Below are positions 7,578-38,176 of a stretch of 43,071 bases of DNA, piece by piece. Numbering within the stretch: position 1 is the first letter of the stretch; each line of letters starts with the position of its first letter. Source of the stretch: Comamonadaceae bacterium (GTDB lineage Bacteria > Pseudomonadota > Gammaproteobacteria > Burkholderiales > Burkholderiaceae_C). The stretch is from positions 1-43,071 of the forward strand of contig CANBWY010000013.1 of assembly GCA_947373245.1 (NCBI GenBank). The letters run 5' to 3'. Position numbers and translations under genes: made by a program. The notes below the pieces were generated by a model that saw only the letters and a program-made list of their open reading frames with translations, was not told the origin of the DNA and did not search any database.

Positions 7578-7589
7578 AAGGACCAACGC

Positions 7590-9062: not shown

Positions 9063-9077
9063 GACAGACTCCTTTCC

Positions 9078-10049: not shown

Positions 10050-10070
10050 CATGTGCCTCCGTTTTGGACC

Positions 10071-15144: not shown

Positions 15145-15321
15145 GATGCTCTCCTTCAAAGAGGTGCTTCACCAAACAACGTCGCTTGCGAAGACTTGGC
15201 ATTTGAGATTAGTGATGGCGTTGTGGCTTGTCCATAGGCGCTGAATACCTTTCTTGTAAAAGCATGACTTTGGTCAAAGCCACACGCAATAGTTCCCTGC
15301 GCGCAAAGGCATCTCTATACG

Positions 15322-17550
15322 ATGACTCAGCGCAATCTGAACACTGTGTCAGATGCGATGGGGGTTGACGCATGGGAGCACGCTTTGTCTCTTGACGAAA
15401 AAATAACCGCTGCCGATTTGGGCATGGCCTTCGATCACCGCGATGAGCTGTTGAGCTGCTTGTTGATCGTGGCGCGTGCGCACGGTGAGTGCCTCACCCC
15501 CGACGCGGTGATGGCCGGCTTGCCCACAGAACAACAAAAACTCACGCCCAGTTTGCTCAAACGCGCGGCCCATCGTGCACGGCTGAGTAGCCACATCGTG
15601 CGCAAAGAGTTGGCCCTTTTGAAAGACGCTTTGTTGCCAGCCATCGTGCTACTGAAAGACGAACGGGCCTGTGTGTTGCTGAGCTTTGACGCCAGCCGCA
15701 GTCACGCCCAAGTGGTCTACCCCGAACTCAGCGATGCGCCGGTCACCGTGGCATTGACCGATTTGGCACACGACTACAGCGGCCTGTCGGTGTACCTGCG
15801 TCCTCGTGTGCGGTGGGACGCGCGCACGCCCCTTGTGCGCAACGGCAGGCAAGGCCATTGGTTTTGGAGCGTGATTGCTGAAAACCGGCTGCTCTACCGC
15901 GACGTGTTGATGGCCGCATTTTTGAGCAACCTGTTTGCGTTGGGCATGCCGCTGTTCGTCATGAATGTGTACGACCGCGTGGTGCCCAACCGTGCGGTGG
16001 ATACGCTGTGGGTGTTGTCGCTAGGGCTGTTGCTGATGTTGGTCAGTGACTTGCTGCTGCGCACCATGCGCGGGCGTTTCATCGACCTCGCCAGCAGCCG
16101 AACCGATGTCAAACTCTCGGCCTTCATCATGGCGCGGGTGATGGGCATGCGCATGGAAGAGCGTCCCAATTCGGCGGGGTCTTTTGCCTCTAATCTGCGG
16201 GCCTTTGAATCGGTGCGCGACTTCATCAGTTCTGCCACCGTGGTGGCCTTCATTGATCTGCCGTTTGGTTTGATCTTCATGGCGGTCATTGCTTGGATTT
16301 CGTGGCCCATGTTGATTCCTTTGATCCTAGGTGCCATGCTCATGCTGCTGTATGCACTAGCCGTGCAAGGGCGCATGCATGAACTGGCCGAGACCACCTA
16401 CCGTGCCAGCGCCCAGCGCAACGCCACCTTGATTGAGAGCTTGGTGGGGTTTGAGACCATCAAAGCCTTGGGGGCCGAGTCCCCCGTGCAAAGCCGCTGG
16501 GAGAAAAGTGCGGTGTTGCTGGCACGCACAGGCGCGCAGCTGCGCTTGCTGTCGGCCAGTGCCACCAACACCGCCAATTTCATGCAGCAGAGTGTGAACT
16601 TGGCCATCGTCATTGCGGGGGTTTACCTGATTGCCGACGGCTCACTGACCATGGGTGGCTTGATTGCCAGCACCATGCTGGCCTCGCGTGCCATGGCGCC
16701 TATCGCGATGGTGTCGGGCTTGCTGGTGCAGTACCACACGGCGGCCACCGCCCTCACCTCACTCAACGAAACCATGCAGCGCGAAGTCGAGCGTCCCGCC
16801 GAAGCCAACTTCATCAGCCGAGGCGGCTTGGATGGGGCAATTGAGTTTCGTGATGTGAGCTTTTCCTACCCCGGCCAACACCAACCTGCACTGCGCAACC
16901 TGAGCCTGAGCATCAAGCCGGGTGAGCATGTGGCCATCTTGGGTCGCATTGGCTCTGGCAAGACCACCTTAGAGAAATTGATCTTGGGGCTGTATCGCCC
17001 CACCACGGGTGCCGTGCTGATCGACAGCATCGACCAACGCCAATTAGACCCCGCTGAAATGCGGCGACAAATAGGCTATGTGCAACAAGACGTGATGCTG
17101 TTTTACGGCACCCTGCGCCAAAACATCACCCTAGGTGCGCCGCTGGCCGATGACCAAGCGGTGGTGCGCGCCGCAGAGATCGCCGGCATCATCGACATGG
17201 TCAACGCGCATCCACAAGGCTTTGACATGGTGATCGGCGAACGCGGTGAGTCCCTGTCGGGCGGGCAACGCCAAGGTGTGGCCATTGCCCGCGCGGTGAT
17301 CAACGACCCTTCGATTCTGTTGTTTGACGAACCCACGGCGGCGATGGACCACAAGAGCGAAGAAGACGTCAAACATCGCTTGGCTGAGTTTGCGCGCGGC
17401 AAGACCCTGATCATCATCAGCCACCGCAATGCACTGCTGGATTTGGCAGATCGCATGGTCGTGATTGACGCTGGGCGCGTGGTGGCCGATGGTCCCAAAG
17501 ACCAAGTGATTGCGGCTTTGAAACAAGGCCGCGTCGGAAAGGCGCAGTGA
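15322..17550 (+). CDS. LapB-type type I secretion ABC transporter
   Basis: This 742-residue inner-membrane exporter has an N-terminal C39-peptidase-like domain (~1-160) with no catalytic cysteine motif that I can see. A six-helix ABC membrane domain (~185-480) and a nucleotide-binding domain follow. Walker A is GRIGSGKTT (541-549), the signature LSGGQ (645-649) and Walker B ILLFDE (665-670). A degenerate C39-like domain is usual in RTX adhesin exporters (LapB, HlyB). The next gene, the membrane-fusion protein, overlaps its stop as TGATG, so the two are co-translated. The divergent adhesin is the obvious cargo. No clear ribosome-binding site precedes the ATG. Confidence 0.93.
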   Translation: MTQRNLNTVSDAMGVDAWEHALSLDEKITAADLGMAFDHRDELLSCLLIVARAHGECLTPDAVMAGLPTEQQKLTPSLLKRAAHRARLSSHIVRKELALLKDALLPAIVLLKDERACVLLSFDASRSHAQVVYPELSDAPVTVALTDLAHDYSGLSVYLRPRVRWDARTPLVRNGRQGHWFWSVIAENRLLYRDVLMAAFLSNLFALGMPLFVMNVYDRVVPNRAVDTLWVLSLGLLLMLVSDLLLRTMRGRFIDLASSRTDVKLSAFIMARVMGMRMEERPNSAGSFASNLRAFESVRDFISSATVVAFIDLPFGLIFMAVIAWISWPMLIPLILGAMLMLLYALAVQGRMHELAETTYRASAQRNATLIESLVGFETIKALGAESPVQSRWEKSAVLLARTGAQLRLLSASATNTANFMQQSVNLAIVIAGVYLIADGSLTMGGLIASTMLASRAMAPIAMVSGLLVQYHTAATALTSLNETMQREVERPAEANFISRGGLDGAIEFRDVSFSYPGQHQPALRNLSLSIKPGEHVAILGRIGSGKTTLEKLILGLYRPTTGAVLIDSIDQRQLDPAEMRRQIGYVQQDVMLFYGTLRQNITLGAPLADDQAVVRAAEIAGIIDMVNAHPQGFDMVIGERGESLSGGQRQGVAIARAVINDPSILLFDEPTAAMDHKSEEDVKHRLAEFARGKTLIIISHRNALLDLADRMVVIDAGRVVADGPKDQVIAALKQGRVGKAQ

Positions 17551-18965
17551 TGGAACCGCTGAACGCAAAAACCTTTGAGCGCATTCGCGTGCTGATAGAC
17601 ACGCTCACGCAAACGGGCAAGCGCTGGTTTGGCGGCATTGTGGCGCGCTTGGCGCCAGAGCCCAACGTCGAACAGTTTGCATGGCACGACGACGCCGATT
17701 GGGCCATGCAGCACCAAGAGCCACTGCGTGCGCGCACCTTGCTGCGCCTGTCGGGGGGCGTTGTGGTGTTGCTGCTGTTGTGGGCAGCGTTGGCAGACGT
17801 TGACGAAGTGACCCACGGCATGGGCAAGGTGGTGCCAAGCAGCCAAGTGCAAATTATCCAAAGCGTGGACGGCGGCGTGGTCGAAGCGCTGCTGGTCAAA
17901 GAAGGGCAAGAAGTACAAGCAGGTCAGCAGCTGCTGCGGGTGGATTCCACGCGCTTCGAATCCAACATGATGGAGAACCGCACCTCCTCGCAAGCGCTGC
18001 AAGCCAAAGCCTTACGGCTTGAAGCCCTCACCCGAGGCACGCCCTTCACACCGCCCCCCGAATTGGTCAAGGCCGCGCCCGACATCGTGGCTCAAGAGAC
18101 GCGTTTGTATGCGTCGCGCCGAGAAGGCATAGAAGCCCAAGTCTCAATTTCAAAAGACCAGTTGAGCCAACGTCAGCACGAGTTCAGTGAGATGAAGGCG
18201 CGCAAAGAGCAAGCCGTCAGTAGCTTGGACTACACCGAGCAAGAGCTCACGGCGACACGCCCCATGTTGGCCACGGGTGCCGTCTCGGAAGTCGAGGTCA
18301 TGCGCTTGGAACGTGATGCCGCGCGCCTGCGCGGCGACCGCGACCAAGCCTCGGCGCAGATGCAGCGCGTTCAGTCCGCCATTCAAGAAGCGCAACGCCG
18401 CATCGAAGACGTGGAGCTGAGCAACCGCAACCAAATGAGCGCCGAATTGTCCGAGACCATGAGCAAACTCTCGTCGATGACAGAGGGGGGACGTGCGCTG
18501 GAAGACAAAGTCAAACATGCGGAGGTGACATCGCCCATGCGCGGCATCGTCAAACGCTTGTTGGTCAATACCGTGGGCGGTGTGGTGATGCCAGGCAAGG
18601 AGTTGGTTGAAATTGTGCCCTTGGACGACGCGCTGATCATGGAAGCGCAGATCAACCCCAAAGACATCGCCTTCTTGCGTCCGGGACAAAAGGCCGTCGT
18701 CAAATTCACCGCCTATGACTATGCGATTTATGGCGGGCTGCAAGCTGAGGTGATCAACATCGGCGCAGACACCGTGCAAGACGAAAAAGGCAATTCGTTT
18801 TATTTGGTCAGGGTGCGTACCGACAAATCTAGGCTAGGTGAAAAACTGCCCATCATCCCCGGCATGATGGCGCAGGTGGACATTTTGGTTGGCAAAAAAA
18901 CCATCCTTTCCTACTTGATCAAACCTGTGATCAGAGCCAAAGCCAATGCACTGACCGAGCGTTGA
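17550..18965 (+). CDS. LapC-type HlyD-family membrane-fusion (adaptor) protein
   Basis: This 471-residue periplasmic adaptor links the ABC exporter to the outer-membrane TolC-type pore. A short cytoplasmic tail precedes one membrane helix (~67-84). Then come a split lipoyl/barrel-sandwich domain, a long coiled-coil hairpin (~175-320, rich in E/Q/R/A) and a beta-barrel domain ending VPGM-like (IIPGMMAQVDILVGKKTILSYL), a typical HlyD C-terminal signature. The ATG at 17550 overlaps the transporter stop by one base and has GGAAAGG 7 bases upstream. A GTG one codon earlier also opens the frame. Confidence 0.93.
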   Translation: MEPLNAKTFERIRVLIDTLTQTGKRWFGGIVARLAPEPNVEQFAWHDDADWAMQHQEPLRARTLLRLSGGVVVLLLLWAALADVDEVTHGMGKVVPSSQVQIIQSVDGGVVEALLVKEGQEVQAGQQLLRVDSTRFESNMMENRTSSQALQAKALRLEALTRGTPFTPPPELVKAAPDIVAQETRLYASRREGIEAQVSISKDQLSQRQHEFSEMKARKEQAVSSLDYTEQELTATRPMLATGAVSEVEVMRLERDAARLRGDRDQASAQMQRVQSAIQEAQRRIEDVELSNRNQMSAELSETMSKLSSMTEGGRALEDKVKHAEVTSPMRGIVKRLLVNTVGGVVMPGKELVEIVPLDDALIMEAQINPKDIAFLRPGQKAVVKFTAYDYAIYGGLQAEVINIGADTVQDEKGNSFYLVRVRTDKSRLGEKLPIIPGMMAQVDILVGKKTILSYLIKPVIRAKANALTER

Positions 18966-18970
18966 GCCCC

Positions 18971-20896
18971 TCACACAATCCCCGGACCAGTTGCACCGTC
19001 AAAGCCCAGTTGGCCCAACAAGGGCAACTCGGTGTCTGACGCCACGCCCATCGCAATCACGGTGATGCCCAGCAAGCGCGCGGCAGCACACAAGCCTTTG
19101 AGAAACTCCTGATGGTTCGGCTGATCAACCAGCCCACGGATGTAGTTGGGGTGCACTTTGATGTAGTCCAAGCTGAGCATGGCCAGTTGGTTGCCCAAGG
19201 CAAAACTTTCGCTGAAGTACTCAATCCCAACTCGGCACTTGAGCTGCTTCAAGCGTTGCACACAGTCATCAAACGCATCGAAGTGTTGCTCTACCCCGTA
19301 CTCCGGCACTTCAAACCACAGTCGCGCACACGCTTGGGGATGCGCGCGCAGCAGCGCGGTCAGGTCATGCATGAACTTGAGCTCGGTCATGCTTTGGGCG
19401 GCCAAGTTCACGGCCACATCGCCGCTCACGTGGTCAAGATGCTGAATCGCCAGCTGCACCACATGCAGGTCAATCGACCCACTCAACTTCAAGCGCACGG
19501 CCATGGGCATGAAATCGCCCGCCACCCAAGGAGGTGTGCCGTCATCGTTGTGCCAACGCAGCACGCCCTCTTGGTGCAACAGCGCTTGTGGATGCAGGGT
19601 GCGCACAGGGTAAAAGGCCAAACTTAAGCGTTGGCGCTGCAACGCATCGGTCAAACGCAGGCGCCATTGATCGCTGGCATAGACTGGGCGTTGGCGCTCA
19701 GCCAAGGGGTCGTCGACAGTGGCCGCTAGGGCCTGCGCGCCCGAGGCTTGCGCCAAGGCCATGGCCGCATCCGCGCGGCACATCAAAGCACTCACCGTCT
19801 CCCCACGGTGGTAGGACACAGCCGCTAAGTGGTAGAGATGGGGCAAGGCCGCAATCCAATCTGGCAGCCCCTGCTGTTGGAGGGTGTGTTGCAGTGCTTG
19901 CACCGCTTGGCTGGGCGACTGGCGACCGGGATAGACCACCGCAAATTCGCCCCCTGTCAATCGTGCCGCCATCGCGTCTTCGTTGGCAGAGACATGCGTC
20001 TTCATCACCGTGGCCAGCAGCTGCAACAAGGTGTTCGTGCGTTCATGTCCGAGTTGCGCATTCAAGGTCTCCAAGGGGCTCAGGCGCAGCATCACCAAAC
20101 TGCCATCGGCCTCGTGCACTTCACCTGTGACCAACTCTTGCAGTTGCGACAAAAAATAGGCCCGATTCGCCAAACCGGTGAGGCCGTCGAGGTTGCTGCG
20201 TTTGCGATAAGCCTCCACCCGCGCAGCCTCTTCGCCAAACATGGTTTTGAGTCGATCGACCATGCTGTTCATGGCACGTGCCAAAGTTTGCAGCTCGGGT
20301 GTGCGAGGCTCGGCGATGTGCAAAAAACGACGCATTTCAATGGCCTGCGCTTGCGTCACCACCTCACTCAAAGGACGGGTGATGCGGCGCATGGCCCAAG
20401 TCGATGCGCCCGCAATGAACAGGCCGCCCAGCGAAAACCAAAACAACAAATGGCGCGTGCCTTGCCAAAGGGCTTGGTACACATACTGCTCGTGACTCGC
20501 GAGGCTCAAGCTGCCATATTGCTGCCATCCGTCTTGAATTTGCGCCACACCGGGTTGCGCTTCAATGGGGATCATGTGAATAAACCACAGGGGAGCCCCC
20601 ATCAACTCGCCATTAAAAACCCGCTCCACCAAGAGTTGGCCGCTCGGCGATGTGATGCGAATGAAGCGGTAGTGGCCAGCGTCAAACTGCGCAGCAACTT
20701 GCAACTCCACCATCACGGGGTCTTTGGGCAACTGCGACAGCGACAGCGCTAAGGCGTTGGCGTTGTCAATGTTCTTGACCTGTAACTGCTGCTCTAAATA
20801 GTGACGTGCAGACACCACGCTGAGCACCAGGCTACCGCCAAATGCCAAGATCGCCGTGAGCAAAATAGCGAGCCAGAGTTGTTTGATGAGGGTCAT
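18971..20896 (-). CDS. lapD: LapD-type c-di-GMP receptor with degenerate GGDEF and EAL domains
   Basis: This is a 641-residue inner-membrane receptor: TM1 (~7-27), a periplasmic LapD_MoxY-type domain, TM2 (~150-168), HAMP (~170-225), a GGDEF-like and an EAL-like domain. Both enzymatic motifs are broken: the GGDEF position reads TGGEF, EAL reads EGV (HQEGVLRW), and the DDFGTGYSS motif is absent. This fits a binding protein rather than an enzyme. In Pseudomonas, LapD holds LapG when c-di-GMP is high; W124 in GWQQYGSL resembles the LapG-contacting Trp there. The ATG at 20896 (MTLIKQ) follows GAGG and matches the family length. It is 25 bases downstream of lapG. Confidence 0.93.
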   Translation of the reverse strand: MTLIKQLWLAILLTAILAFGGSLVLSVVSARHYLEQQLQVKNIDNANALALSLSQLPKDPVMVELQVAAQFDAGHYRFIRITSPSGQLLVERVFNGELMGAPLWFIHMIPIEAQPGVAQIQDGWQQYGSLSLASHEQYVYQALWQGTRHLLFWFSLGGLFIAGASTWAMRRITRPLSEVVTQAQAIEMRRFLHIAEPRTPELQTLARAMNSMVDRLKTMFGEEAARVEAYRKRSNLDGLTGLANRAYFLSQLQELVTGEVHEADGSLVMLRLSPLETLNAQLGHERTNTLLQLLATVMKTHVSANEDAMAARLTGGEFAVVYPGRQSPSQAVQALQHTLQQQGLPDWIAALPHLYHLAAVSYHRGETVSALMCRADAAMALAQASGAQALAATVDDPLAERQRPVYASDQWRLRLTDALQRQRLSLAFYPVRTLHPQALLHQEGVLRWHNDDGTPPWVAGDFMPMAVRLKLSGSIDLHVVQLAIQHLDHVSGDVAVNLAAQSMTELKFMHDLTALLRAHPQACARLWFEVPEYGVEQHFDAFDDCVQRLKQLKCRVGIEYFSESFALGNQLAMLSLDYIKVHPNYIRGLVDQPNHQEFLKGLCAAARLLGITVIAMGVASDTELPLLGQLGFDGATGPGIV

Positions 20897-20921
20897 AGTG
20901 GGGCCTCGTGAGAACGTGGAT

Positions 20922-21596
20922 TCATGGAGAAATACCTTCGTGGTGCATGCGATTGAGCACATCACGCCACTTGGATAAACGGGTGGTGGGGTCGGCGTTG
21001 GTGGGTGTGCTGGCCCCCACCCACAAGCCTGTGTCGTTGAAACTGTAGACAGGCGTCAGATCCGTGCGTTGCGACGCTGGGCGCACGCTGCCAATCAAGT
21101 TATCCAAAATCAGAGGCGCGTCGGTGGGCTGTTGGTAGTAGCCCAAAACCATATGGGCCACGCTGGTGTTGGGGCCTGTTTGTGCGCGCACATAAATCAT
21201 GCGCAACTTGTCTTTGTTCATGCCCATCAATTGCAAGGTCATGTATTTCGCAATCGAGAAATCTTCACAATCGCCGGCACCACGCCCCATGAATTCCAAG
21301 GGTGTGGCCCAGTAATCTTCTTTGCCCCAGACCACCATGTCAGGCAGAAATTGCATGCGGCGATTGAAAAACGTGTTGACCTGATTGAGCATGACGAGGT
21401 CTGAGGCTCCGTGCGTCTCATGAATCAATTGACGCCAAGCCAACACCGTCTGTGCAGCAGCGCTCCCATATTGCTGCTGCGCGAGGCTCTGCGTTTGGTC
21501 TAAATCGGTCTCAGCCAAGCTGCTCCCGAGCAGCACCAACGACGCCAGCAACAAGCCACTGGCGAAGGGCAGACGGGTCATCAAGAATTGAGTCAT
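20922..21596 (-). CDS. lapG: LapG-type periplasmic cysteine protease
   Basis: This 224-residue transglutaminase-like protease has an N-terminal signal or anchor helix (~7-28). The catalytic triad is C110 (GAGDCEDFS), H148 (VAHMVLGY) and D165 (LILDNL). The acidic residues after the cysteine fit the calcium site of LapG. In Lap systems it cuts the adhesin after the retention module to release it when c-di-GMP falls. The start is uncertain: the frame opens with TTG at 21635, but ATG at 21596 gives a normal signal peptide, and neither has a strong ribosome-binding site. It forms an operon with lapD. Confidence 0.92.
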   Translation of the reverse strand: MTQFLMTRLPFASGLLLASLVLLGSSLAETDLDQTQSLAQQQYGSAAAQTVLAWRQLIHETHGASDLVMLNQVNTFFNRRMQFLPDMVVWGKEDYWATPLEFMGRGAGDCEDFSIAKYMTLQLMGMNKDKLRMIYVRAQTGPNTSVAHMVLGYYQQPTDAPLILDNLIGSVRPASQRTDLTPVYSFNDTGLWVGASTPTNADPTTRLSKWRDVLNRMHHEGISP

Positions 21597-21674
21597 GAGC
21601 CACAACACGATCGCAGCAAATGCTGGCCATGGCAAGCGTGATGCGAGGTCTGCGCTGGCTTAGATGCACGCTGT

Positions 21675-26486: not shown

Positions 26487-27656
26487 ATGGGCGACACTTG
26501 TGTCTTCACCTCAGAGTCTGTTTCTGATGCGCACCCAGACAAGGTGGCCGATCAAATTTCAGACGCGGTGCTGGATGCTGTCTTGGCACAAGACCCCTTC
26601 GCACGCGTCGCCGCAGAAACCCTCACCAGCCTCGGCTTGGTGATGCTCGCCGGTGAAATCACCACCACGGCGCGGGTCAATTACGCGGCGGTGGCTAGGC
26701 ACACGCTGGAACGCTTGGGCTACCACGCCAGCGCCTTGGGCATGGATGCGCACACCTGCGCTGTGGTGGTGAGCTATGGCCACCAAAGCCCAGACATTGC
26801 ACGCGGCGTAGACCATGCCGACGATGACCCCTTAGAACAAGGCGCCGGTGACCAAGGCATGATGGTGGGCTACGCAGTGAATGACACCCCCGAGCGCATG
26901 CCGCTGCCCCTCATGTTGGCGCACCGGCTCATGCAACGCCAAGCGGCTCTGCGCCAAAGCCATCGCTTTGACTGGCTCAGACCAGACGGCAAATCGCAAG
27001 TCTCGGTGCGCTATGAAGGCCCGCGCGCCGTGGGCCTCGAGACCATCGTGCTGTCCACACAACACGCACCCGACATCGACTTAGCCACACTGCGAGAAGC
27101 GGTGATTGAAGAAATTATCAAACCCGTCATACCGCCAGAGTTTTCAAAAAATAACATACGCTTTCTCGTCAACCCCACAGGCCGTTTTGTGGTGGGTGGG
27201 CCGCAAGCTGACTGCGGACTCACGGGGCGCAAAAACATCGTGGACAGCTATGGCAGTGCGGTGCCCCATGGGGGTGGGGCCTTGTCGGGCAAAGACCCCT
27301 CCAAGGTCGATCGCACCGGGGCCTATGCTTGCCGCTATGTGGCCAAAAACATCGTGGCCGCTGGCTTGGCCACGAAGTGCTTGGTGCAAGTGTCTTACGC
27401 CATCGGCATTGCGCGCCCCGTCTCGGTCATGGTGCACACCTACGGCACGGGCCGGATCCCGGATGCAGACTTGGCCCGCTGCGTCACCGAACACATAGAT
27501 TGGCGGCCACGCGCCCTCATCGACAGGCTTCAATTGCGTCGCCCCATCTATGAAAAAACGGCCGCGTTTGGACATTACGGCCGCACCGACCCCGACTTCA
27601 CTTGGGAGCGTTGTGACTTGGCAGACTTGCTCAAAGACACGGCAGGCAAGACATGA
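26487..27656 (+). CDS. metK: S-adenosylmethionine synthetase, divergent copy in a cheR operon
   Basis: This 389-residue enzyme makes S-adenosylmethionine from methionine and ATP. Key motifs are intact: the start [17 protein letters not shown], the ATP-binding GAGDQG (119-124), [13 protein letters not shown], and [16 protein letters not shown] (261-276), where most family members have GGGAFSGKD. It differs from the usual Burkholderiales housekeeping MetK at many positions ([23 protein letters not shown]), so it is probably a second copy; that can only be confirmed genome-wide. The start is 2 bases after the hemerythrin stop. Its stop overlaps the cheR ATG by four bases (ATGA). Confidence 0.93.
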
Positions 27657-28993
27657 CGCCGCTGGTCATCACGCCAGAGGTGGCACAAAAAATTTGTCAG
27701 TCTGTCGGACTGCGCATGACGAGTTCCAACGACAGCCATCTGGCCGAATGGGTCCATGCGCGATGCCAAGAGCGCCATCTCCCGAGCCCAGAAGCCTACG
27801 CCTCTTGGTTGGCAGACCCCCTGCATGCGTTACAAGAGCGCGAAGCCTTGAGCAAGCTGCTGACGTCTCACGAGACTTATTTTTTACGCGACCGTGGCGC
27901 CTTGGATGTATTGCGCGAACACATTTTGAAAGACACCCTCGCGCAAAAAAAAGAACAACGCAGTCTCAACATCTGGAGCGTGGGTTGCTCCACCGGCGAG
28001 GAGCCCTACACCTTGAGCATCTTGCTCGAAGAAAACATGAGCGACTTGGGTCAGTGGCAGGTAGACATTTTGGGCTCGGACATCGACTCAGCCGTTCTCA
28101 CCCAAGCCCGCCAAGCGGTCTACCGACCTTGGTCATTCAGGGGCTGCCCCCCTGAGTTCATCACGCGCTACTTTCACGCAGACAATGGCTATTTGAAACT
28201 CATGGCGCACATCATGGATCGCGTGCGCTTTGAACGGCTTGACATCGTGGGCGACGTCTACCCCACCTCAGTCAAAGGCATGGCCCATGCGGACATCATT
28301 TTGTGCCGCAACGTTTTTATTTATTTAGACGATGCCGCCATCCAAACGGCGTTAAAAAAAATCACAGCATGTTTGAATGAAGGTGGCTATTTGCTGTGCG
28401 GCCCGGGTGAGCTGCAAGCCCAAGCACACCCGCAGTTGGTGCCACGCATCTTTCCGCAAGCCATGGTATTTCAAAAGAAAACCATCGCAGATCAGCCCGT
28501 AGTTGCGGAACCCTCGCACACCCTCGCGCCACATGCGACACCCTATGTCACACAGCACACCGCAGCGCAGACGCTGCCTTCCACACCCGCAGAACCCACA
28601 ACCACGTTGGCACACGCTTGGGCGTTGGCCAATCGAGGGGATGTGGCGCAGGCCTCAGCCATGTGCGACACCTTGATTCAACAGCACCCGTTTGACCCCC
28701 ACGCCCACTACCTGCACGCGGTGCTGCTATTTGCGCAAGGCTTGAGCGTCCAAGCACGTGAGTCCTTGCGGCGTGTGCTCTACCTTGACCCTCTCTTTGC
28801 GGTGGCCTACCTCATGCTGAGTGACGTTTGCATGGCCATCGACGACATCACCTGCGCCTTGAAAAGCTGCGAACAAGGCTTGAAAGCCACCAGCATTCAA
28901 GCCGAGGAACAACGGGTGCCTTACTTCAAATCGGTGACCTACCTAGAATTTCGCCAACACTTGCAAGATCGCATAGTGAGCTTGGCTCAATAG
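27653..28993 (+). CDS. cheR: CheR-type receptor methyltransferase with C-terminal TPR region
   Basis: This is a 446-residue protein. It has an all-alpha CheR N-domain (~1-95; [12 protein letters not shown]) and a Rossmann methyltransferase domain with the SAM loop [16 protein letters not shown] (~105-120) and [13 protein letters not shown] ~45-residue Pro/Thr-rich linker leads to tetratricopeptide-like helices (~320-430). It methylates glutamates of chemoreceptors using S-adenosylmethionine. CheR-TPR fusions are known from Wsp-type systems (WspC). It is probably the partner of the MCP and CheB at 4345-9062. It overlaps metK by four bases and overlaps the convergent phosphodiesterase gene by seven. 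Confidence 0.92.
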
Positions 28994-31281
28994 GTGTGCG
29001 CGTCCTTGAGCAACTGCTCAAACGCCAAAGTGGGCATGGGCTTGGCGAACAAATAACCTTGGCCTTCGTCGCAGGCCAGTTTGAGTAAAAACGCACGTTG
29101 CTCTTCTTGCTCCACCCCTTCGGCCACGATGAGAAAGCCAAACTCCTTGGCCATCGCCACAATCACACTGGTGATCACCACCGCGTGGGGGTTGGTCAAT
29201 ATTTCACGGATGAATGAAATATCGATTTTCAAAATATCAATAGGGAATTTTTCAAGATAGGCCAACGACGAGTAGCCCGTGCCAAAGTCATCAATCGCCA
29301 CCAAGACCCCCATGGCGCGAATTTCATCCAACAAGGCAATGGTCTGTTCTGCGTTGGTCATGGCCGCGGACTCGGTCAACTCGACCTCTAGAAAACGGGC
29401 GGGGAGCTGGTTCGCGGCCAACAAGTCACGAATTACCGTGATGATTTTGTGGTCTGAAAAATTTTCAGCCACCAAATTGACAGAAATAGGAACGGCTGCG
29501 AGGCCCGCATCTAACCATGCTTTTTGCTGGCGACACACTTGCGCCAACATCCAGTCGGTCATGTGCACGATGAGCCCAATTTCTGCGGCAAGCGGCACAA
29601 ATTCGATGGGCGGGATGATGCCCAGCTCGGGGTCGCGCCACCGAATCAAGGCCTCGGCACCGGCAATTTTTCCGGTCGCCAAATTGACACGCGGTTGGTA
29701 GAACACCTCAAATTCATCATTGATCATCGCGGCGCGAAGTCGGCTTTCTTTCTTCACCAAATTCTGCACTTCGTCATTCAACTCGGTCGATGCATGCACC
29801 ACACCCATACGCCCCTCTTGTTTGGCTTTGTACAACGCACCTTCGGTGGACTGCAGCAAGGAGGTGGCATCTTGCGCATCTTTGGGGTAGGTGCTCACGC
29901 CCATGTAGGGCTCCAACTGCAACTGCAAGCCTTGCCACGTGAAGGGCGTGTTGGTGGCACGAAACAAACGGGTGAGCAGCTCAGTCACAGAGCTCGGATC
30001 CTCCGAGCCATCGACCAAGTAAACGAAATCTTGGTTGCGCACCCTCGCCACCATGTGCGACTTGGGTTGCAACTCGCGCAAACGCTGGGCCAGTTCGATC
30101 TGCACGTGGTCCGTCACCTCATGGCCCAAGCTGACCGCAAATTTGTTGAGTCGGCTCAGCTCAATGGCGACCAAGGTCACCGATGTGTCGGTGCGTTGCG
30201 CCGTATGAATGCTTTGCGCAATGGCATCCAACAACAAGGCCTTGCCAGGCAAATCAGTCAGCGCATCATGGGTGCCTTTGTGCTCTAGCTCTAGCTCAAT
30301 TTTTCGAGCCCGGTTGATCTCAGACACATCACGCAACACACAGTTCAAATACTGGTGCGCATGCAAATCAATCAAGCGCGCACGCACTTCAATGTCTGCC
30401 TCACCGCCCGTTCGCGTGCGCATCACCAGTGCGAAGTTGTACTCGGCGTGCTTGACCGCTTGGCTGAAGTTGCCCAGCACGGTGGGCATGGCATCGGGCA
30501 AACAAATGTCTGCCAAGGTCAGGGCTGAGAACTCTTCGCGCAAATAGCCCAACTGGCCGCACAGCACATCGTTGAACTCCATGAACTTCTGTGTCGCCAA
30601 GTCCAGCAAACCCACGCCCTCTGGCAGCAAAGAGAACAAGGTTTTGTAACGAACCTCCGCGTCTGTGGCGCGTTGCTTCTCGAGTGCCAACGACGCTGTG
30701 CGCTCTTGAACCTTGCTTTCGAGTTGCCGGTTCAGGCTGTTCAACTCATCTTCTAGTTTTCGTAAATGCGCATTTTGTTGAACCGCATTTTCATAGGTCG
30801 AGATCAACATTTGCAAAATCTTTTCTCGACTGGCCTTGACGGGGTAGAACGCCCCATTCACCTCCACATCCAAGGCGACGCTGTCTTCCACAGGGGGCAT
30901 GCCCTCGCGTGAGACACGCAGCAAGCGATCAATCTGGTACTGCAAGCTGTCGTTGTCATAGGGCTTGGTCAGGTAGGCCTCAGCACCCGCATTCAAACCC
31001 TTGATGACATCGGTGGCGTCAGACAACACAGTCAGCAAAATCACGGGTGTGCCGCGCAACAAGGGGTCTTGCTTGATGCGCTCGCACATTTGGTAGCCAT
31101 CCAAGATAGGCATCTGAATGTCGCTCACCACCAAATCCGGGCGTTTGGCGCGCAAGGCGATCAACCCCGCCTCGCCGTCGCTGGCAATCAGACAGTCGTA
31201 GCCATGACCGGTCAGAAAACGGCGAAGAATCTCCGCTTGAATTTGACTGTCTTCGACGATCAAGATGGTGGCATTGCTCAT
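28987..31281 (-). CDS. Response regulator REC-PAS-GGDEF(degenerate)-EAL, likely c-di-GMP phosphodiesterase
   Basis: This is a 764-residue cytoplasmic protein. It has a receiver (D54 in VVSDIQMP), a coiled coil (~165-215), a PAS domain (~210-330), a GGDEF-like domain with RNQDF at the active site (~340-500) and an EAL domain (~515-760). The EAL domain keeps EALIRW, the conserved Asn and Glu positions (SVNLVAENF, LEVELTES) and DDFGTGYSSL, so it should hydrolyse c-di-GMP. The GGDEF half is probably regulatory. With no membrane anchor and a receiver, it is a candidate output of the hybrid CheA encoded nearby, which is inference. It is divergent from a diguanylate cyclase over an FNR-type box. Confidence 0.92.
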   Translation of the reverse strand: MSNATILIVEDSQIQAEILRRFLTGHGYDCLIASDGEAGLIALRAKRPDLVVSDIQMPILDGYQMCERIKQDPLLRGTPVILLTVLSDATDVIKGLNAGAEAYLTKPYDNDSLQYQIDRLLRVSREGMPPVEDSVALDVEVNGAFYPVKASREKILQMLISTYENAVQQNAHLRKLEDELNSLNRQLESKVQERTASLALEKQRATDAEVRYKTLFSLLPEGVGLLDLATQKFMEFNDVLCGQLGYLREEFSALTLADICLPDAMPTVLGNFSQAVKHAEYNFALVMRTRTGGEADIEVRARLIDLHAHQYLNCVLRDVSEINRARKIELELEHKGTHDALTDLPGKALLLDAIAQSIHTAQRTDTSVTLVAIELSRLNKFAVSLGHEVTDHVQIELAQRLRELQPKSHMVARVRNQDFVYLVDGSEDPSSVTELLTRLFRATNTPFTWQGLQLQLEPYMGVSTYPKDAQDATSLLQSTEGALYKAKQEGRMGVVHASTELNDEVQNLVKKESRLRAAMINDEFEVFYQPRVNLATGKIAGAEALIRWRDPELGIIPPIEFVPLAAEIGLIVHMTDWMLAQVCRQQKAWLDAGLAAVPISVNLVAENFSDHKIITVIRDLLAANQLPARFLEVELTESAAMTNAEQTIALLDEIRAMGVLVAIDDFGTGYSSLAYLEKFPIDILKIDISFIREILTNPHAVVITSVIVAMAKEFGFLIVAEGVEQEEQRAFLLKLACDEGQGYLFAKPMPTLAFEQLLKDAHTY

Positions 31282-31351
31282 TGTGATGAACCCTCATGCG
31301 GTGAAGTCATGACAGCCCGAGTATGCGCTTTCATCGCTCTCGACTTGTGTA

Positions 31352-31379
31352 AATTTAGCAATGTCTTGATATGTATCAA
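31352..31379 (-). promoter_or_regulatory. Consensus FNR box overlapping a promoter between the phosphodiesterase and cyclase genes
   Basis: TTGAT-ATGT-ATCAA (31366-31379) matches the FNR consensus at all ten specified bases. On the minus strand TTGATA (31379-31374), a 16-base spacer and TAAATT (31357-31352) form a plausible phosphodiesterase promoter whose -35 overlaps the box, a geometry that would suit repression. No well-placed -10 for class II activation is seen in either direction. The 206-base gap otherwise shows only the cyclase ribosome-binding site. Confidence 0.6.
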
Positions 31380-31487
31380 TTTAAATGAGATGTACCCGAA
31401 CGCAACTGCGCCACACTCAAGCCACGTCCACCAACACCACGAAAACCACTATGCCTATGTTGCCTTTTTTCGCAAGAAAGGTCTCTC

Positions 31488-33050
31488 ATGTCTGCTGACT
31501 TGAAGCACCTCAATAGCAAAAATAGCCAGCAGTATTTGGGTGTGAAGTTCAACTCTCGCATCTCCCAAACCATCACACGGTTGTATATCTTCACCGTGCT
31601 GGCTGTTTTGATAGGGTCAAGCATTGCTTTGCTGCAAAACTGGGAGCTGCGCGTCAAAGATACCCAATCGAAGTTGGTACGCAGCGCCAATTTGGTGAAC
31701 TTCTTGATCGAAACCAATCTGGCCATTGCCGAGAAGTCCTTGAAGACCACGCAAGCGGCCTTCACACAAGCGCTGGCGTCAGGCCCTGTGGACGCGCAAC
31801 TGGCCACCCAATTGCTGGACAAGAACTACCAACGCTTCAAAACCTACAACAACGTCGACCTGTTTGGTTTGGAATTTTTTGTCAACGCCCAAGGCCAGCT
31901 GGTGGCACGCAGCGGCATACCCAGCAACGAAAAAATTGACTTCTCCGACCGCTTTTACTTTTACCAACTGCGCGACCACCCTGAATTGACACGCGCCATC
32001 GGCCCACTGGTGTTTGCGCGAACCACCAAAACATGGTTGTTTCATATCTCGGTTCCACTGCATGACAAAGCCGGAAAATTTGCCGGGGTGTTGGTGCAAC
32101 AACTGTCAGAAACAGACATCGCCAACAGTCTGACGCAATACTCAGACGTCGACAATTTCGAACAACTGATGACGCATGTGACCAACGCCGATGCCTCGTT
32201 TGTGTTTCCACCGCCGGGTACGCCCGAGTCGCCCAGCCAAGAAATTCAGCAGGCGCTCAAGCATAGGCCGGCCCAAGAAGCCCTCACCAACGGTGGCGCT
32301 TTCCAATGGAATGCACCTGCCCAAAAAAATACCAAACATGTGTTGATGCAAGTCGTGAAGTCTTCTGTTTACGACTTGGAAACCTACGCCAGCTTTCCAG
32401 AAACCAGAATTCAGCATGAGTTTTGGTATGGCAACCGACCCTTTTTTCTGTTTGTGCTGGTGGGCATGTCGATCTCGACGGCCATCTTTTTCTACCTGCT
32501 TCAATTGTCAAAAAAACTGACCCAAGCCCAAACGGCTTCGCTCTATGACGCACTCACCAAGGTGCACAACCGGCGCGCGCTGGACGAAATTTTGCCCGTT
32601 TTGTTAAGCGATGCCATGCGTTCCCAAGAGCCCATCAGTGTGCTGTTCATCGACATTGACCATTTCCGCTTTTTCAACAAAAAGTATGGCCATGAAAGTG
32701 GCGACACAGCCTTGGTGGCCGTGGCGCAAACGCTGGCCGACTGCGCCAGTCGCCCGTTGGATTTTGTGTGTCGCTGGGGCGGCGAAGAGTTTGTCATCGT
32801 GCTGCCCAAAACCAACAGCCATGCTGCCCAGAAAATTGCCCACGAAATCTTAAATGCGGTACGTGCAGTTCAACTCGAAAGCCGCAACGGCGAACATCCC
32901 AGCATCACCGTCAGCGTGGGGTATGTGACCGACACCGTCACATCCATCCAAACCCAAGACGATTTGATTGACCAAGCGGACCAAGCCATGCGCCAAGCGA
33001 AAAGCCAGGGCCGCGACCAATGCGTGGCCTATGAACCCATAGACCGCTAA
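31488..33050 (+). CDS. Membrane diguanylate cyclase with extracytoplasmic Cache-like sensor
   Basis: This is a 520-residue enzyme: TM1 (~31-50), a ~265-residue periplasmic domain of dCache type (DRFYFYQLRDHPELTRAIGPLVFARTTKTWLFHISVPL), TM2 (~318-340) and a GGDEF domain with an intact GGEEF site (431-435). An RPLD I-site (422-425) lies five residues before the motif, so product inhibition is expected. It makes c-di-GMP from two GTP. The start has AAAGG upstream. It overlaps pilT tail-to-tail by four bases and is divergent from the phosphodiesterase gene, so the pair may set local c-di-GMP for LapD and pilus functions. Confidence 0.93.
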   Translation: MSADLKHLNSKNSQQYLGVKFNSRISQTITRLYIFTVLAVLIGSSIALLQNWELRVKDTQSKLVRSANLVNFLIETNLAIAEKSLKTTQAAFTQALASGPVDAQLATQLLDKNYQRFKTYNNVDLFGLEFFVNAQGQLVARSGIPSNEKIDFSDRFYFYQLRDHPELTRAIGPLVFARTTKTWLFHISVPLHDKAGKFAGVLVQQLSETDIANSLTQYSDVDNFEQLMTHVTNADASFVFPPPGTPESPSQEIQQALKHRPAQEALTNGGAFQWNAPAQKNTKHVLMQVVKSSVYDLETYASFPETRIQHEFWYGNRPFFLFVLVGMSISTAIFFYLLQLSKKLTQAQTASLYDALTKVHNRRALDEILPVLLSDAMRSQEPISVLFIDIDHFRFFNKKYGHESGDTALVAVAQTLADCASRPLDFVCRWGGEEFVIVLPKTNSHAAQKIAHEILNAVRAVQLESRNGEHPSITVSVGYVTDTVTSIQTQDDLIDQADQAMRQAKSQGRDQCVAYEPIDR

Positions 33051-34096
33051 CCTACTGAGCTAAAGCTATCAGGGTACTTGGCTTTAGCGCGCGCTTGTGC
33101 CACATCAATCCGCCCTTGGCTGACCAAGGTGGTGAGGTTTTGGTCCAAGGTCTGCATGCCCGCAGCACTGCCCGTTTGGATGGCTGAATACATTTGTGCC
33201 ACCTTGCCCTCACGAATCAGGTTGCGCACCCCTGTCGTGCCCACCATGATTTCGTAGGCGGCAATGCGCCCTGCGCCGTCCTTGCGTTTACACAGCACCT
33301 GCGAAATGACGGCGTTGAGGGACTCGGACAACATGCTGCGCACCATCTCTTTCTCTTCAGCGGGAAAGACATCGATGATGCGGTCTATGGTTTTGGCGGC
33401 CCCCGAGGTGTGCAGCGTGCCAAACACCAAGTGCCCTGTTTCAGCCGCGGTGATGGCGAGGCGTATGGTTTCTAAATCGCGCATCTCGCCCACCAAGATC
33501 ACGTTGGGGTCTTCGCGCATCGCGGCGCGCAAGGCATTGGAAAAACTCAAGGTGTGGCCGCCCACCTCGCGTTGGTTGATCAAACATTTGTTTGGGGTGT
33601 GCACAAATTCAATCGGGTCTTCAATCGTCAAGATGTGCTTGGTCGTGCTTTGGTTGAGCAAATCCACCATGGCCGCCAAGGTGGTGGATTTGCCTGAGCC
33701 CGTCGGCCCAGTGACCAACACCAAGCCGCGTGGGCTGCGCACAAATTCAGAAAATATATCGGGTGCGTTGAGCTCCTCCAAACGCGGCATGCGCGTGGGA
33801 ATGCCGCGAAACGCCACCGACACCCCGCGCGCTTGGTGGAAGGCATTGACACGAAAGCGCGACACGTCGGGAATGTCGAATGAAAAATCGCACTCTAGGG
33901 TGTCGCGAAATTGGGCTTGCTGGGGTGGGCTCATGATGCCCACCACCGCGCTGTGAATTTCGTCACTGCTAAAAGCCTCATCGGACATGCGCGTCAAATC
34001 GCCATCGATGCGCAACATGGGCGGCACCCCCGACGACAAGTGCAAATCGGAGGCCCGTCGCGCGATGCACTGCGTCAATAAGTCTTGAACATTCAT
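33047..34096 (-). CDS. pilT: PilT-type pilus retraction ATPase
   Basis: This 349-residue secretion-superfamily hexameric ATPase is of PilT length. It has Walker A GPTGSGKST (130-138), the Asp box ILTIEDPIEFVH, Walker B NVILVGEMRD, a His box TGHLVFGTLHT and the PilT-specific C-terminal VRNLIREGKVAQMYSAIQTG. AAAGG precedes the ATG. It lies 19 bases after mshN on the same strand, where an assembly ATPase (MshE) would sit in a classical MSHA operon. It is too short for MshE and lacks its N-terminal domain. Confidence 0.9.
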   Translation of the reverse strand: MNVQDLLTQCIARRASDLHLSSGVPPMLRIDGDLTRMSDEAFSSDEIHSAVVGIMSPPQQAQFRDTLECDFSFDIPDVSRFRVNAFHQARGVSVAFRGIPTRMPRLEELNAPDIFSEFVRSPRGLVLVTGPTGSGKSTTLAAMVDLLNQSTTKHILTIEDPIEFVHTPNKCLINQREVGGHTLSFSNALRAAMREDPNVILVGEMRDLETIRLAITAAETGHLVFGTLHTSGAAKTIDRIIDVFPAEEKEMVRSMLSESLNAVISQVLCKRKDGAGRIAAYEIMVGTTGVRNLIREGKVAQMYSAIQTGSAAGMQTLDQNLTTLVSQGRIDVAQARAKAKYPDSFSSVG

Positions 34097-35951: not shown

Positions 35952-37832
35952 TCAGCGAGGGGTGTTCATGGCACCGATGCGCTCGCCTGTGGCCGAGATG
36001 TCATCGCTCCATGTGCCGTCGTCTTTGACCACGGTGGACTTCAACAAAATCACCAGCTCGCGCTTGGTCAAGGTTTGTGCCCCCCAGTTAAAGAAGGCCC
36101 CCACACCAGGAATGTCACGTGCGCCCGGCACGCCGCTGCGAATGTCTGAATTCGACTCGGTCATCAAGCCACCAATCACGATGACTTGCCCATCTTTGGC
36201 TTTGACCACGCTGTCGGTCTCGTTCATGGTGTTGACCGCAAAGGGCACGGGGGCAGAGGCACCCTTATCAGCGGTGATCAAGGCAGCTTTGGATTTTTCA
36301 GTCACACTGTTGACCATCGAATGCACATGCAAGGTGATGTTGTCTTCCACATCAATTTGCGGCGTGACATCTAAAGAAATGCCAGAAAAGAATGGTTGGT
36401 AGGAAAGGGTCGGTGTCACCGTCGACAAAACCCCTAAATTATTCGTACTGCTGCCGCCGGTGATGCTGGTGACAAACGATTCCTCACTGCCCACCTTGAT
36501 GACTGCCATTTGGTTGTTCATGGTGGCAATGCGTGGACTCGACAGCACTTGCACATGGCCCTGCGACTCGAGGAAGTTGATCAAAGCTGAGAAGTTGCTG
36601 GTTTGCACCGCGATGCCCGACACTGCCGACAAGGCGTTGGTCGGTGCTTGGTTGGTTCCCAGCACCGCCCCCAAGCTGGAGCCTGCGGTCACAGCGCCAC
36701 CAAATTGACCGGCTTGGTTCATGCCAATCGTGCCAGCGTTGGCACCAACGGAAAAGCGTTGCACACCATTGGGGAAAGAACCCCAGTTGATGCCTTGCTG
36801 TGAATCTTTGTTCAACACCACATCGATGATTTTGGACTCGATGATCACTTGGCGTGAGATGCTCAACTGCATGGACTTCAACAGCTTCTCAACGGTGCGC
36901 AACTCCGACGGCATGCCGCGCGCCAAGATGGTGCCGCTCATTTGATTGATGGTCAGTGCACGGCCATCCACACAGCCATCGGAGCCACGGGCACGTTCGC
37001 CCAAGCGCACATCGCCCGGGTGTGTCACGTCTGCACGCGAGGCATTGGCTTGGTTCGTCGCCGTCGGCACAGCACCCAATGGACTCGCCAAGGCTTTGGG
37101 AATGTTGCAACCCAACACGGTACGCAAGGCATCTTCAGCCTCACCCCACACATCCGACTTCACCGTGGTGCTCAAACCGCTGGCTTGCACCGAGGCATAA
37201 CTGGAAGAAGAGGAACTTGAACCGCCCGACGACGAGCTGGACGAATGTCCCACAGAGGCGCCGCCAATGACTTGAATGTCACTCACCCCACGACGCTGGC
37301 CCAAGATGTAGTTGACATAAAACAGCTGTGTTTGCAACTGGGCGGGTTGCACCAAGATGCGTTGCTTGTCCACGGTGTAGTCGTAGCCATACACATCGCG
37401 CAAGGCATCCAACGCTTGGAACAAGGTGATGTTTTTCAAATTCAAGGAGACGCGCGTCTCCAACACATCGGCCGCAACCGGCACATTGGGCAGGCGACTC
37501 GCCGGTTTGAGCAAGATGCTGTAGTCCGTGCCCGCCACCAAACCCGACAACACTTGGGCAATGGGGGCGTCGTTCACCACCAAATCAAAGCGCTGTTCCC
37601 CTTTGTGCGCGGGTGCTTTGCTGACCATGCTGTAGATGGAGGGCAACAACATTTCATTGAGCACGGCAGGGGGCAGCCCCGTGGTCGTGGCGCCTGTTGA
37701 CTTGGCAGACGTCGCATTGGCCAGCTCGCGCGAGACACGGTTTTGTGTTGACAGATCCGGGGTGGGATACATCGACGAGCAAGCGGTGGTGAGCGCCAAG
37801 GGCGCGAGGATTGCGAGTGTGTGCCATTTCAT
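35952..37832 (-). CDS. mshL: MshL, outer-membrane secretin of the MSHA pilus
   Basis: This 626-residue secretin has a lipoprotein-like signal (MKWHTLAILAPLALTTAC, C18). It has an STN domain (~80-165) and a Ser/Gly-rich loop (197-211, nearly all serine). The secretin core carries VPGARDIPGVGAFFN and ends ELVILLKSTVV. It forms the outer-membrane channel for the pilus. The ATG at 37832 is chosen because AAGGAG lies 6 bases upstream and a lipoprotein signal follows; the open frame runs 35 codons further without such signals. It overlaps mshK by four bases. Confidence 0.92.
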   Translation of the reverse strand: MKWHTLAILAPLALTTACSSMYPTPDLSTQNRVSRELANATSAKSTGATTTGLPPAVLNEMLLPSIYSMVSKAPAHKGEQRFDLVVNDAPIAQVLSGLVAGTDYSILLKPASRLPNVPVAADVLETRVSLNLKNITLFQALDALRDVYGYDYTVDKQRILVQPAQLQTQLFYVNYILGQRRGVSDIQVIGGASVGHSSSSSSGGSSSSSSSYASVQASGLSTTVKSDVWGEAEDALRTVLGCNIPKALASPLGAVPTATNQANASRADVTHPGDVRLGERARGSDGCVDGRALTINQMSGTILARGMPSELRTVEKLLKSMQLSISRQVIIESKIIDVVLNKDSQQGINWGSFPNGVQRFSVGANAGTIGMNQAGQFGGAVTAGSSLGAVLGTNQAPTNALSAVSGIAVQTSNFSALINFLESQGHVQVLSSPRIATMNNQMAVIKVGSEESFVTSITGGSSTNNLGVLSTVTPTLSYQPFFSGISLDVTPQIDVEDNITLHVHSMVNSVTEKSKAALITADKGASAPVPFAVNTMNETDSVVKAKDGQVIVIGGLMTESNSDIRSGVPGARDIPGVGAFFNWGAQTLTKRELVILLKSTVVKDDGTWSDDISATGERIGAMNTPR

Positions 37833-38176
37833 TGACTTCTCCTTGTTTTGACAACCGAAGGGTTGAGATTGATTTCTTCTGTGGTCGTGGCATTGCGCAT
37901 CACCACACTTTGCTTGCCAATGCTGACCAACTGCCACTGGTTGAGGTTGTCACCGGGCTTGAGCACCACGCCATCGATGACGGCAAAACTGCGTTGAGGT
38001 CCGACGAGCAGCATTTGAATGTTGTCAGGCGTCGTGCTCACGGACGCCACCTTGGCGTTGACGGCTGGGCTGTTGGGTGGGCGCGTGGGGTCGTGCAACT
38101 CGCTTTGCGCCCACAGCGAGCCCACACCAAACGCCAAACCAAGGGCGATGAGCAAGGGTGGATGGATGTGTTTCAT
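37829..38176 (-). CDS. mshK: MshK-like small periplasmic pilus-assembly protein
   Basis: This 115-residue protein has a signal peptide (HPPLLIALGLAFGVGSLWAQ) and the DPTRPP motif typical of MshK and related PilP/GspC-like proteins. The rest resembles an inner-membrane-to-secretin linker domain (AVIDGVVLKPGDNLNQWQL). The start follows the mshJ-like stop by three bases; no clear ribosome-binding site is seen, so coupling is likely. Confidence 0.82.
   Translation of the reverse strand: MKHIHPPLLIALGLAFGVGSLWAQSELHDPTRPPNSPAVNAKVASVSTTPDNIQMLLVGPQRSFAVIDGVVLKPGDNLNQWQLVSIGKQSVVMRNATTTEEINLNPSVVKTRRSQ

Follow-up and report, generated by a model that had tools for sequence, protein, structure and literature searches.

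A consensus FNR-type dyad between divergent genes for a c-di-GMP phosphodiesterase and the only intact diguanylate cyclase found in a Comamonadaceae genome

Control of c-di-GMP enzymes by FNR is already known, the closest described case being yfgF of Escherichia coli and Salmonella, a c-di-GMP phosphodiesterase gene that, in the part of the published account available, lies behind a class II FNR promoter with a consensus box at -41.5 and is switched on when oxygen is absent (PMC3718329). For FnrL of Rhodobacter capsulatus, binding adjoining c-di-GMP signalling genes, either predicted or from ChIP-seq, is reported in the accessible portion of a second paper (PMC7232146); in the accessible text of a paper on the FnrL regulon, the searched terms matched the reference list only (PMC4634722). 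In E. coli, FNR has also been linked to c-di-GMP indirectly, through NapA and nitric oxide (excerpts of PMC11227560), and attachment of Paracoccus denitrificans has been linked to nitric oxide and to c-di-GMP, which acts there as a negative regulator (excerpts of PMC5588039). On the output side, adhesin retention has been described for LapD-LapG-LapA and BpfD-BpfG-BpfA (excerpts of PMC3032553, PMC4359373 and PMC8938473), and control of the MSHA pilus by c-di-GMP via MshE in excerpts of two further papers (PMC7096442 and PMC5013675). In the limited open-access literature covered, which consisted of titles and the openings of abstracts, no description was found of an FNR box separating a cyclase gene from a phosphodiesterase gene.

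Such an arrangement is present in a Comamonadaceae bacterium, in a window that comprises an entire contig of 43,071 bases. Here, a gap of 206 bases (31282-31487) separates divergent genes for a phosphodiesterase and a cyclase, and contains the FNR-type dyad TTGATATGTATCAA (31366-31379, assigned to neither strand), which matches the consensus TTGAT-N4-ATCAA at 10 of 10 positions and, viewed as a dyad, has the six-base arms TTGATA-TG-TATCAA. The first-pass annotation of this DNA had reported both the ten-position box and the 206-base gap with the two enzymes reading in opposite directions; the sequence and coordinates of the box are confirmed, and the coordinates, domains and motifs of the flanking genes agree with the description of the gap.

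The locus shares with yfgF of E. coli the TTGAT-N4-ATCAA box and a phosphodiesterase with a degenerate GGDEF domain, the EAL domain being active in yfgF. Unlike the yfgF box, which is positioned at -41.5 with a -10 element and activates, the box here overlaps a predicted -35 element and lacks a class II -10; moreover, it lies in a divergent gap common to a cyclase gene, and the enzyme carries a receiver (REC) domain where that of yfgF carries MASE1, as far as the available account of yfgF extends. The likeness to FnrL is that a site for an FNR protein adjoins c-di-GMP signalling genes, the site being a predicted one in the present case. R. capsulatus differs in that it is an alphaproteobacterium with several such c-di-GMP genes in the accessible part of that source.

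The phosphodiesterase gene (28987-31281, minus strand) is predicted to encode a response-regulator protein of 764 aa with the architecture REC-GGDEF-EAL (Pfam Response_reg, GGDEF and EAL), in which the GGDEF motif is degenerate (VRNQDF) and the EAL motifs are intact (EALIRW, DDFGTG, KID, EGVE and QGY); the middle region is PAS-like by reading, yet Pfam gave no PAS match there. The cyclase gene (31488-33050, plus strand) is predicted to encode a protein of 520 aa with a Cache-like sensor, which matches dCache_1 below the Pfam cut-off, followed by a GGDEF domain (Pfam, 2.3e-44) that carries an RPLD I-site and a GGEEF motif, RPLDFVCRWGGEEF. For both genes, the start codon is the earliest ATG, GTG or TTG in the frame. 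The domains and intact catalytic motifs lead to their assignment as phosphodiesterase-type and cyclase-type enzymes, presumably active, and the identities proposed in the first-pass annotation therefore stand. At its other end, the phosphodiesterase gene is convergent with a gene for a CheR-TPR methyltransferase (27653-28993, plus strand; Pfam CheR and TPR), the two overlapping by 7 bases at 28987-28993.

The genome assembly is 84% complete, with 2.29 Mb distributed over 112 contigs. It contains three GGDEF matches, all of which are within the window and belong to the cyclase, the phosphodiesterase and a LapD protein that, read by eye, is degenerate in both its GGDEF and EAL domains. The protein encoded at 31488-33050 is the sole intact GGDEF cyclase found; some 16% of the genome may lie outside the assembly, and with it further cyclases, so that 'only' refers here to what was found. 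EAL matches also number three, one of them outside the window, in a protein with an EAL domain that is some 473 residues long (L114, G000:C11:14402-15106, minus strand). By eye, this protein is without the EAL and DDFG motifs, and it is probably not an active phosphodiesterase. Of two HD_5 matches, one contains the sequence HHENWDGSGYP, which we take to be the HD-GYP motif, and in the other this sequence is altered, making one further c-di-GMP-degrading enzyme likely. The case for the dyad is stronger than the first-pass annotation knew, because the adjoining cyclase is the only intact GGDEF cyclase found.

Candidate regulators are encoded in the same genome. The Pfam Crp model (PF00325) matches three proteins, on contigs C37, C52 and C56, all of which are FNR-type proteins that keep the cluster cysteines and have Fnr as their best NCBIfam family match, with scores of 237.7, 228.4 and 204.5, respectively, against a cut-off of 228 that the C56 protein falls below. 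The recognition helix reads ETISR in the C37 protein, ETVSR in C56 and ETVGR in C52; cluster cysteines and an E-x-x-S-R helix, residues that we take to define the FNR family, occur together in two of the three. Residues 8-230 of the C37 protein align with solved FNR chains (9qll, with 5cvr and 5e44 over the same range), and three N-terminal cysteines and a later one are matched in 9qll. The neighbours of its gene read as ccoG/ccoH and hemN. The third paralogue (L107:1751-2473) combines a CRP-like ETVGR helix with cluster cysteines, and its DNA target may differ from that of the other two. On contig C56, the FNR gene is about 5 kb from the only MshEN-domain ATPase found (8982 and 13907-14167).

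With respect to the position of the dyad, a consensus scan of 31000-31900 returned two promoter-like sites, as compared to 0.4 expected, both on the minus strand. The sole match inside the 206-base gap (31352-31379, minus strand, 9 of 12 consensus positions) faces the phosphodiesterase gene, and consists of a predicted -35 element TTGATA (31379-31374), a 16-base spacer, and a predicted -10 element TAAATT (31357-31352) preceded by TG. The dyad spans this -35 element and half of the spacer, so that the overlap with the -35 of a plausible promoter noticed on first reading is recovered by the scan. FNR bound at the dyad would cover the -35 element and part of the spacer, a position that fits repression of the phosphodiesterase. 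Binding of FNR to the dyad is probable, being supported by the 10 of 10 match, the cognate FNR proteins, an exact box before ccoN and the overlap with the -35 element. With less assurance, we would expect FNR to affect at least one of the flanking genes, and repression of the phosphodiesterase is tentatively put forward as the most likely form of that effect. Thus, the enzymes, the regulators, the ccoN box and the -35 overlap all speak for the oxygen and FNR reading of the box in the first-pass annotation, but the effect on both enzyme genes that it envisaged is unproven: no credible class II -10 was found in either direction by a coarse test, and nothing promoter-like turned up in the cyclase direction within 31000-31900.

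Alternatively, FNR may activate rather than repress, acting either on the cyclase gene or, from a class I position, on the phosphodiesterase gene; in the latter case, low oxygen would lower c-di-GMP and release the adhesin, as a dispersal response. In yfgF, the closest precedent, FNR acts from an identical consensus as the activator of a phosphodiesterase gene, according to the available part of the account (PMC3718329), and boxes in two relatives, G054 and G062, precede a Crp-like-cyclase gene pair, an observation that counts for the repression reading as well. Class II activation, however, requires a box at -41.5 with the -10 element about 22 nt further on, and hexamers 19-24 nt from the box were scored with a -10 weight matrix in what is a coarse test. 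The best scores were -3.0 in the direction of the cyclase and -3.4 in that of the phosphodiesterase, both below the background median of -0.4, and simple class II activation is therefore unsupported. Among the other box directions, 2 of 11 scored above the 95% point of the background of 4.6 (6.6 for a hemN-like gene and 4.9 for L007), and the ccoN box, at 3.0, fell between the 75% and 90% points. Class II activation of either gene was set aside on these scores, though so coarse a test does not exclude it firmly. For class I activation, the hexamer CATACT (31325-31320, minus strand) would place the box near -60, but this hexamer was spotted by eye and carries no statistic. Activation of either gene appears fairly unlikely.

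A further alternative is that the dyad arose by chance or is a relic, and has no regulatory effect. At the scale of the locus, the numbers argue against chance: a first-order model predicts 0.0007 exact boxes in the 206-base gap, and 0.0033 in the non-coding DNA of the window, defined in this analysis as gaps of at least 20 bases between 961 and 42535 (1306 bases in 8 gaps). In the whole window, TTGATATGTATCAA is the one exact box, with 0.06 expected from shuffles, 6 of 100 of which contained at least one. The setting of the dyad, in a divergent gap, overlapping a promoter-like element, and with cognate regulators present, likewise argues for function. At the scale of the genome, the numbers are more favourable to chance, as 7 of the 12 exact boxes lie inside genes according to a home-made codon-usage gene call. 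The initial judgement that the box was very unlikely to arise by chance thus holds for the gap and is weaker genome-wide.

The remaining five exact boxes, four non-coding and one partial, comprise the dyad, two boxes in other gaps, a box before an acetyl-CoA synthetase-like gene, and the ccoN box, classed as partial because it falls where a short predicted frame ends. A hemN-like gene is preceded by a one-mismatch box, and both ccoN and hemN are presumably FNR targets, as in other bacteria. The box before the gene read as acetyl-CoA synthetase (L013:1501-1514) is about 100 bases upstream of it.

As a control, the same half-sites were counted genome-wide at spacings of 1, 2, 3, 5, 6 and 7, giving 8, 5, 4, 0, 8 and 14 sites, respectively, or 39 in total, of which 8 are non-coding, 1 is partial and 30 are coding. 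Non-coding boxes number five at spacing 4 versus about 1.4 per control spacing (Poisson 0.012 against 8/6 and 0.019 against 9/6, or 0.046 for the strict four, with the partial ccoN box uncounted), and all exact boxes number 12 versus 39/6 per control spacing (Poisson 0.034); the difference in the non-coding share between spacing 4 and the controls is not significant (Fisher 0.14; strict 0.29). Exact non-coding boxes are modestly enriched in this genome, and a minority may be chance matches; with about 1.4 non-coding sites per control spacing, about 1.4 of the 5 could be chance. A reversed-pattern control (12 versus 1), which would suggest strong enrichment, was set aside as too lenient, because by our reasoning the reversed pattern contains the rare TAG/CTA; the spacing control is far less favourable to enrichment. 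Overall, a dyad without effect seems doubtful.

The comparison with relatives bears on the same alternative, as a box is lacking in a syntenic relative. Matches to the cyclase at E < 1e-50 occur in 10 of 83 other genomes of the genus, in G002 and G034 over the GGDEF part only, and 58 of the 84 genus genomes have no match at E <= 0.001, as is the case for 23 of the 40 genomes that reach 90% completeness without exceeding 5% contamination. A named-orthologue search returned 10 loci, whose identity of 28-39% in every case extends over the GGDEF part or scarcely beyond it. The first 346 residues of the cyclase are matched at 1e-15 in 2 of 399 family genomes, its own and G046. At the strict threshold of E <= 1e-150, with two candidates scored per genome listed, the phosphodiesterase is matched in 1 of the 399 family genomes, its own; its first 330 residues are matched in 2 of the 84 genus genomes at 1e-20, one being its own and the other a 27% match. 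Within flanks of about 1.5 kb, the phosphodiesterase is beside the cyclase homologue in none of 10 relatives, and in 4 of the 10 a match of 25-28% to its middle region only is found near the cyclase homologue.

Upstream of the cyclase homologues in these relatives, an exact box is present in one gap of 10 (G054), a one-mismatch box in another (G062), and neither in the other eight, the upstream stretch of G049 having been set by hand. The exact box of G054 was matched by none of 2000 simulated sequences, and the one-mismatch box of G062 has a p of about 0.035 before correction for the tests made. In both genomes, the cyclase homologue follows a Crp-like gene, some 100 bases upstream of which lies the box, with an FNR-like gene directly upstream; conservation of the dyad in orthologous regions amounts to 2 of 10 gaps that carry a box with no more than one mismatch, both in another architecture. 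Loci from two relatives (L102:1332-4485 and L103:239-3303) run from an FNR-like gene through an FNR-type box and a Crp-like gene to a Cache-GGDEF cyclase, and adjoin genes reading as TadE-like pilus genes.

The syntenic relative is G066, in which the cyclase, PilT and MSHA-type genes occur in the same order, with PilT 87% and the cyclase 54% identical. The 100-base gap upstream of its cyclase contains no box (the best site has 4 mismatches), the phosphodiesterase is absent there, and the cyclase is preceded by an RNase-like gene. Since the neighbouring gene differs too, G066 offers a different locus, and does not demonstrate that the dyad was lost. The first-pass annotation had named loss of the dyad in close relatives as a refutation; as far as the comparison reaches, its outcome goes against that reading, the dyad being absent in G066, though at a different locus and beside a cyclase that is only 54% identical. 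When the 206-base gap is compared with the two nearest cyclase relatives, clear alignment is restricted to the start of the coding region. With a phosphodiesterase that has no close match and a gap alignable only at the coding start, the usual phylogenetic footprinting is impossible. The dyad at this gene junction has so far been seen in its own genome alone.

That another Crp/Fnr-type protein, for instance the ETVGR paralogue, uses the site in response to a signal that is not simply oxygen is very improbable, for although the three paralogues could overlap and the C52 helix differs from ETVSR and ETISR, all three keep the cluster cysteines and match the Fnr model best (C56 with 204.5 < 228), and TGTGA rather than TTGAT would be the preferred half-site of a CRP-like helix.

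The surroundings of the dyad are those of attachment genes, and the stretch from 4345 to 42535 reads as a self-contained attachment island of chemosensory, adhesin, LapD/LapG, c-di-GMP enzyme and MSHA-type pilus genes. The chemosensory genes (4345-10052, minus strand; CheB, CheA-REC, MCP and double CheW by Pfam) we take to be Wsp-like, on the basis of CheR-TPR and CheA-REC. They are followed by a gene for a large LapA-like adhesin of 1651 aa (10204-15159, minus strand), assigned by reading of its sequence, which suggests an N-terminal retention-like module and C-terminal glycine-rich, RTX-like repeats, and by genes for a type 1 secretion ABC transporter and HlyD partner (15322-18965, plus strand; Pfam). 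The LapD-type c-di-GMP receptor of 664 aa (18971-20965, minus strand; Pfam LapD_MoxY_N, HAMP, GGDEF and EAL) and the LapG-type cysteine protease (20922-21635, minus strand; Pfam Peptidase_C93) exceed the Pfam cut-offs, and the GGDEF-EAL region of the former is degenerate by eye, but neither reaches its NCBIfam equivalog cut-off (444 bits against 1020 for LapD, and 232 bits against 320 for LapG).

On the far side of the cyclase, and convergent with it, a gene for a PilT/PilU-family pilus ATPase (33047-34096, minus strand; NCBIfam pilT_fam 491 bits, cut-off 319) begins an MSHA-type pilus region that extends toward the end of the contig and includes a gene for an MshL-like secretin (35952-37937, minus strand; NCBIfam MshL 233 bits, below the cut-off of 250), accompanied by further genes reading as pilus genes. 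There is no sign that the contig was misbinned: the GC content of the window is 0.559, as compared to 0.54 (sd 0.035) over 53 genome stretches including two from the window, its tetranucleotide correlation with the genome is 0.978 with those two left out, and its PilT is 87% identical to that of a genome of the same genus.

In keeping together LapD, LapG, a LapA-like adhesin and type 1 secretion genes, the island resembles the LapD-LapG-LapA and BpfD-BpfG-BpfA systems. It differs from them in that these genes are accompanied by the only intact cyclase found, with an FNR-type dyad beside it, and in that its LapD and LapG score below the NCBIfam cut-offs. The likeness to MshE systems is that MSHA-type genes are beside a cyclase and that the genome has one MshEN-domain ATPase; unlike in those systems, the MshEN protein is encoded on another contig (C56), outside the window, and is a candidate for MshE or for another pilus or secretion ATPase.

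Our preferred explanation, which we advance tentatively, is that FNR represses the phosphodiesterase in low oxygen, and thereby raises c-di-GMP and adhesin retention. Under this scheme, the dyad is a genuine FNR operator, to which a [4Fe-4S] FNR protein would bind in low oxygen, covering the phosphodiesterase -35 element and half of the spacer and repressing the gene. With less degradation, and possibly with help to the divergent cyclase, c-di-GMP from the only intact cyclase found would rise. At high c-di-GMP, LapD would hold LapG, the LapA-like adhesin would be kept on the surface, and the activity of the MSHA-type pilus would increase. In oxygen, FNR would lose its cluster, the phosphodiesterase would be active, and c-di-GMP would fall. 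The receiver domain of the phosphodiesterase may, in addition, take a signal from the Wsp-like chemosensory genes. What the analysis establishes is the sequence, its neighbouring genes, the FNR proteins and the number of GGDEF matches, whereas binding, repression, the direction of the response, the chemosensory link and output through LapD and the pilus are inferred.

Many bacteria in which c-di-GMP has been studied own large sets of cyclases and phosphodiesterases, which makes it difficult to connect a single input with the pool and with a particular behaviour. In the present assembly, one intact cyclase was found, beside a phosphodiesterase, a LapD-type receptor and two systems for surface attachment. 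It is conceivable, though quite unlikely, that the c-di-GMP circuit of this organism consists of no more than a single cyclase, a single intact EAL phosphodiesterase and a single LapD receptor, all on one 43-kb island, with one FNR dyad in the promoter gap that they share setting both enzymes, such that oxygen sets the cell pool and switches the adhesin and the MSHA-type pili together. Interest in the site is raised by its position adjoining the only intact cyclase found, within an attachment island. If the site works, it would provide a second FNR route to c-di-GMP beside that of yfgF, and a natural circuit small enough for oxygen, second messenger and attachment to be traced end to end. Oxygen could then decide whether cells stay attached.
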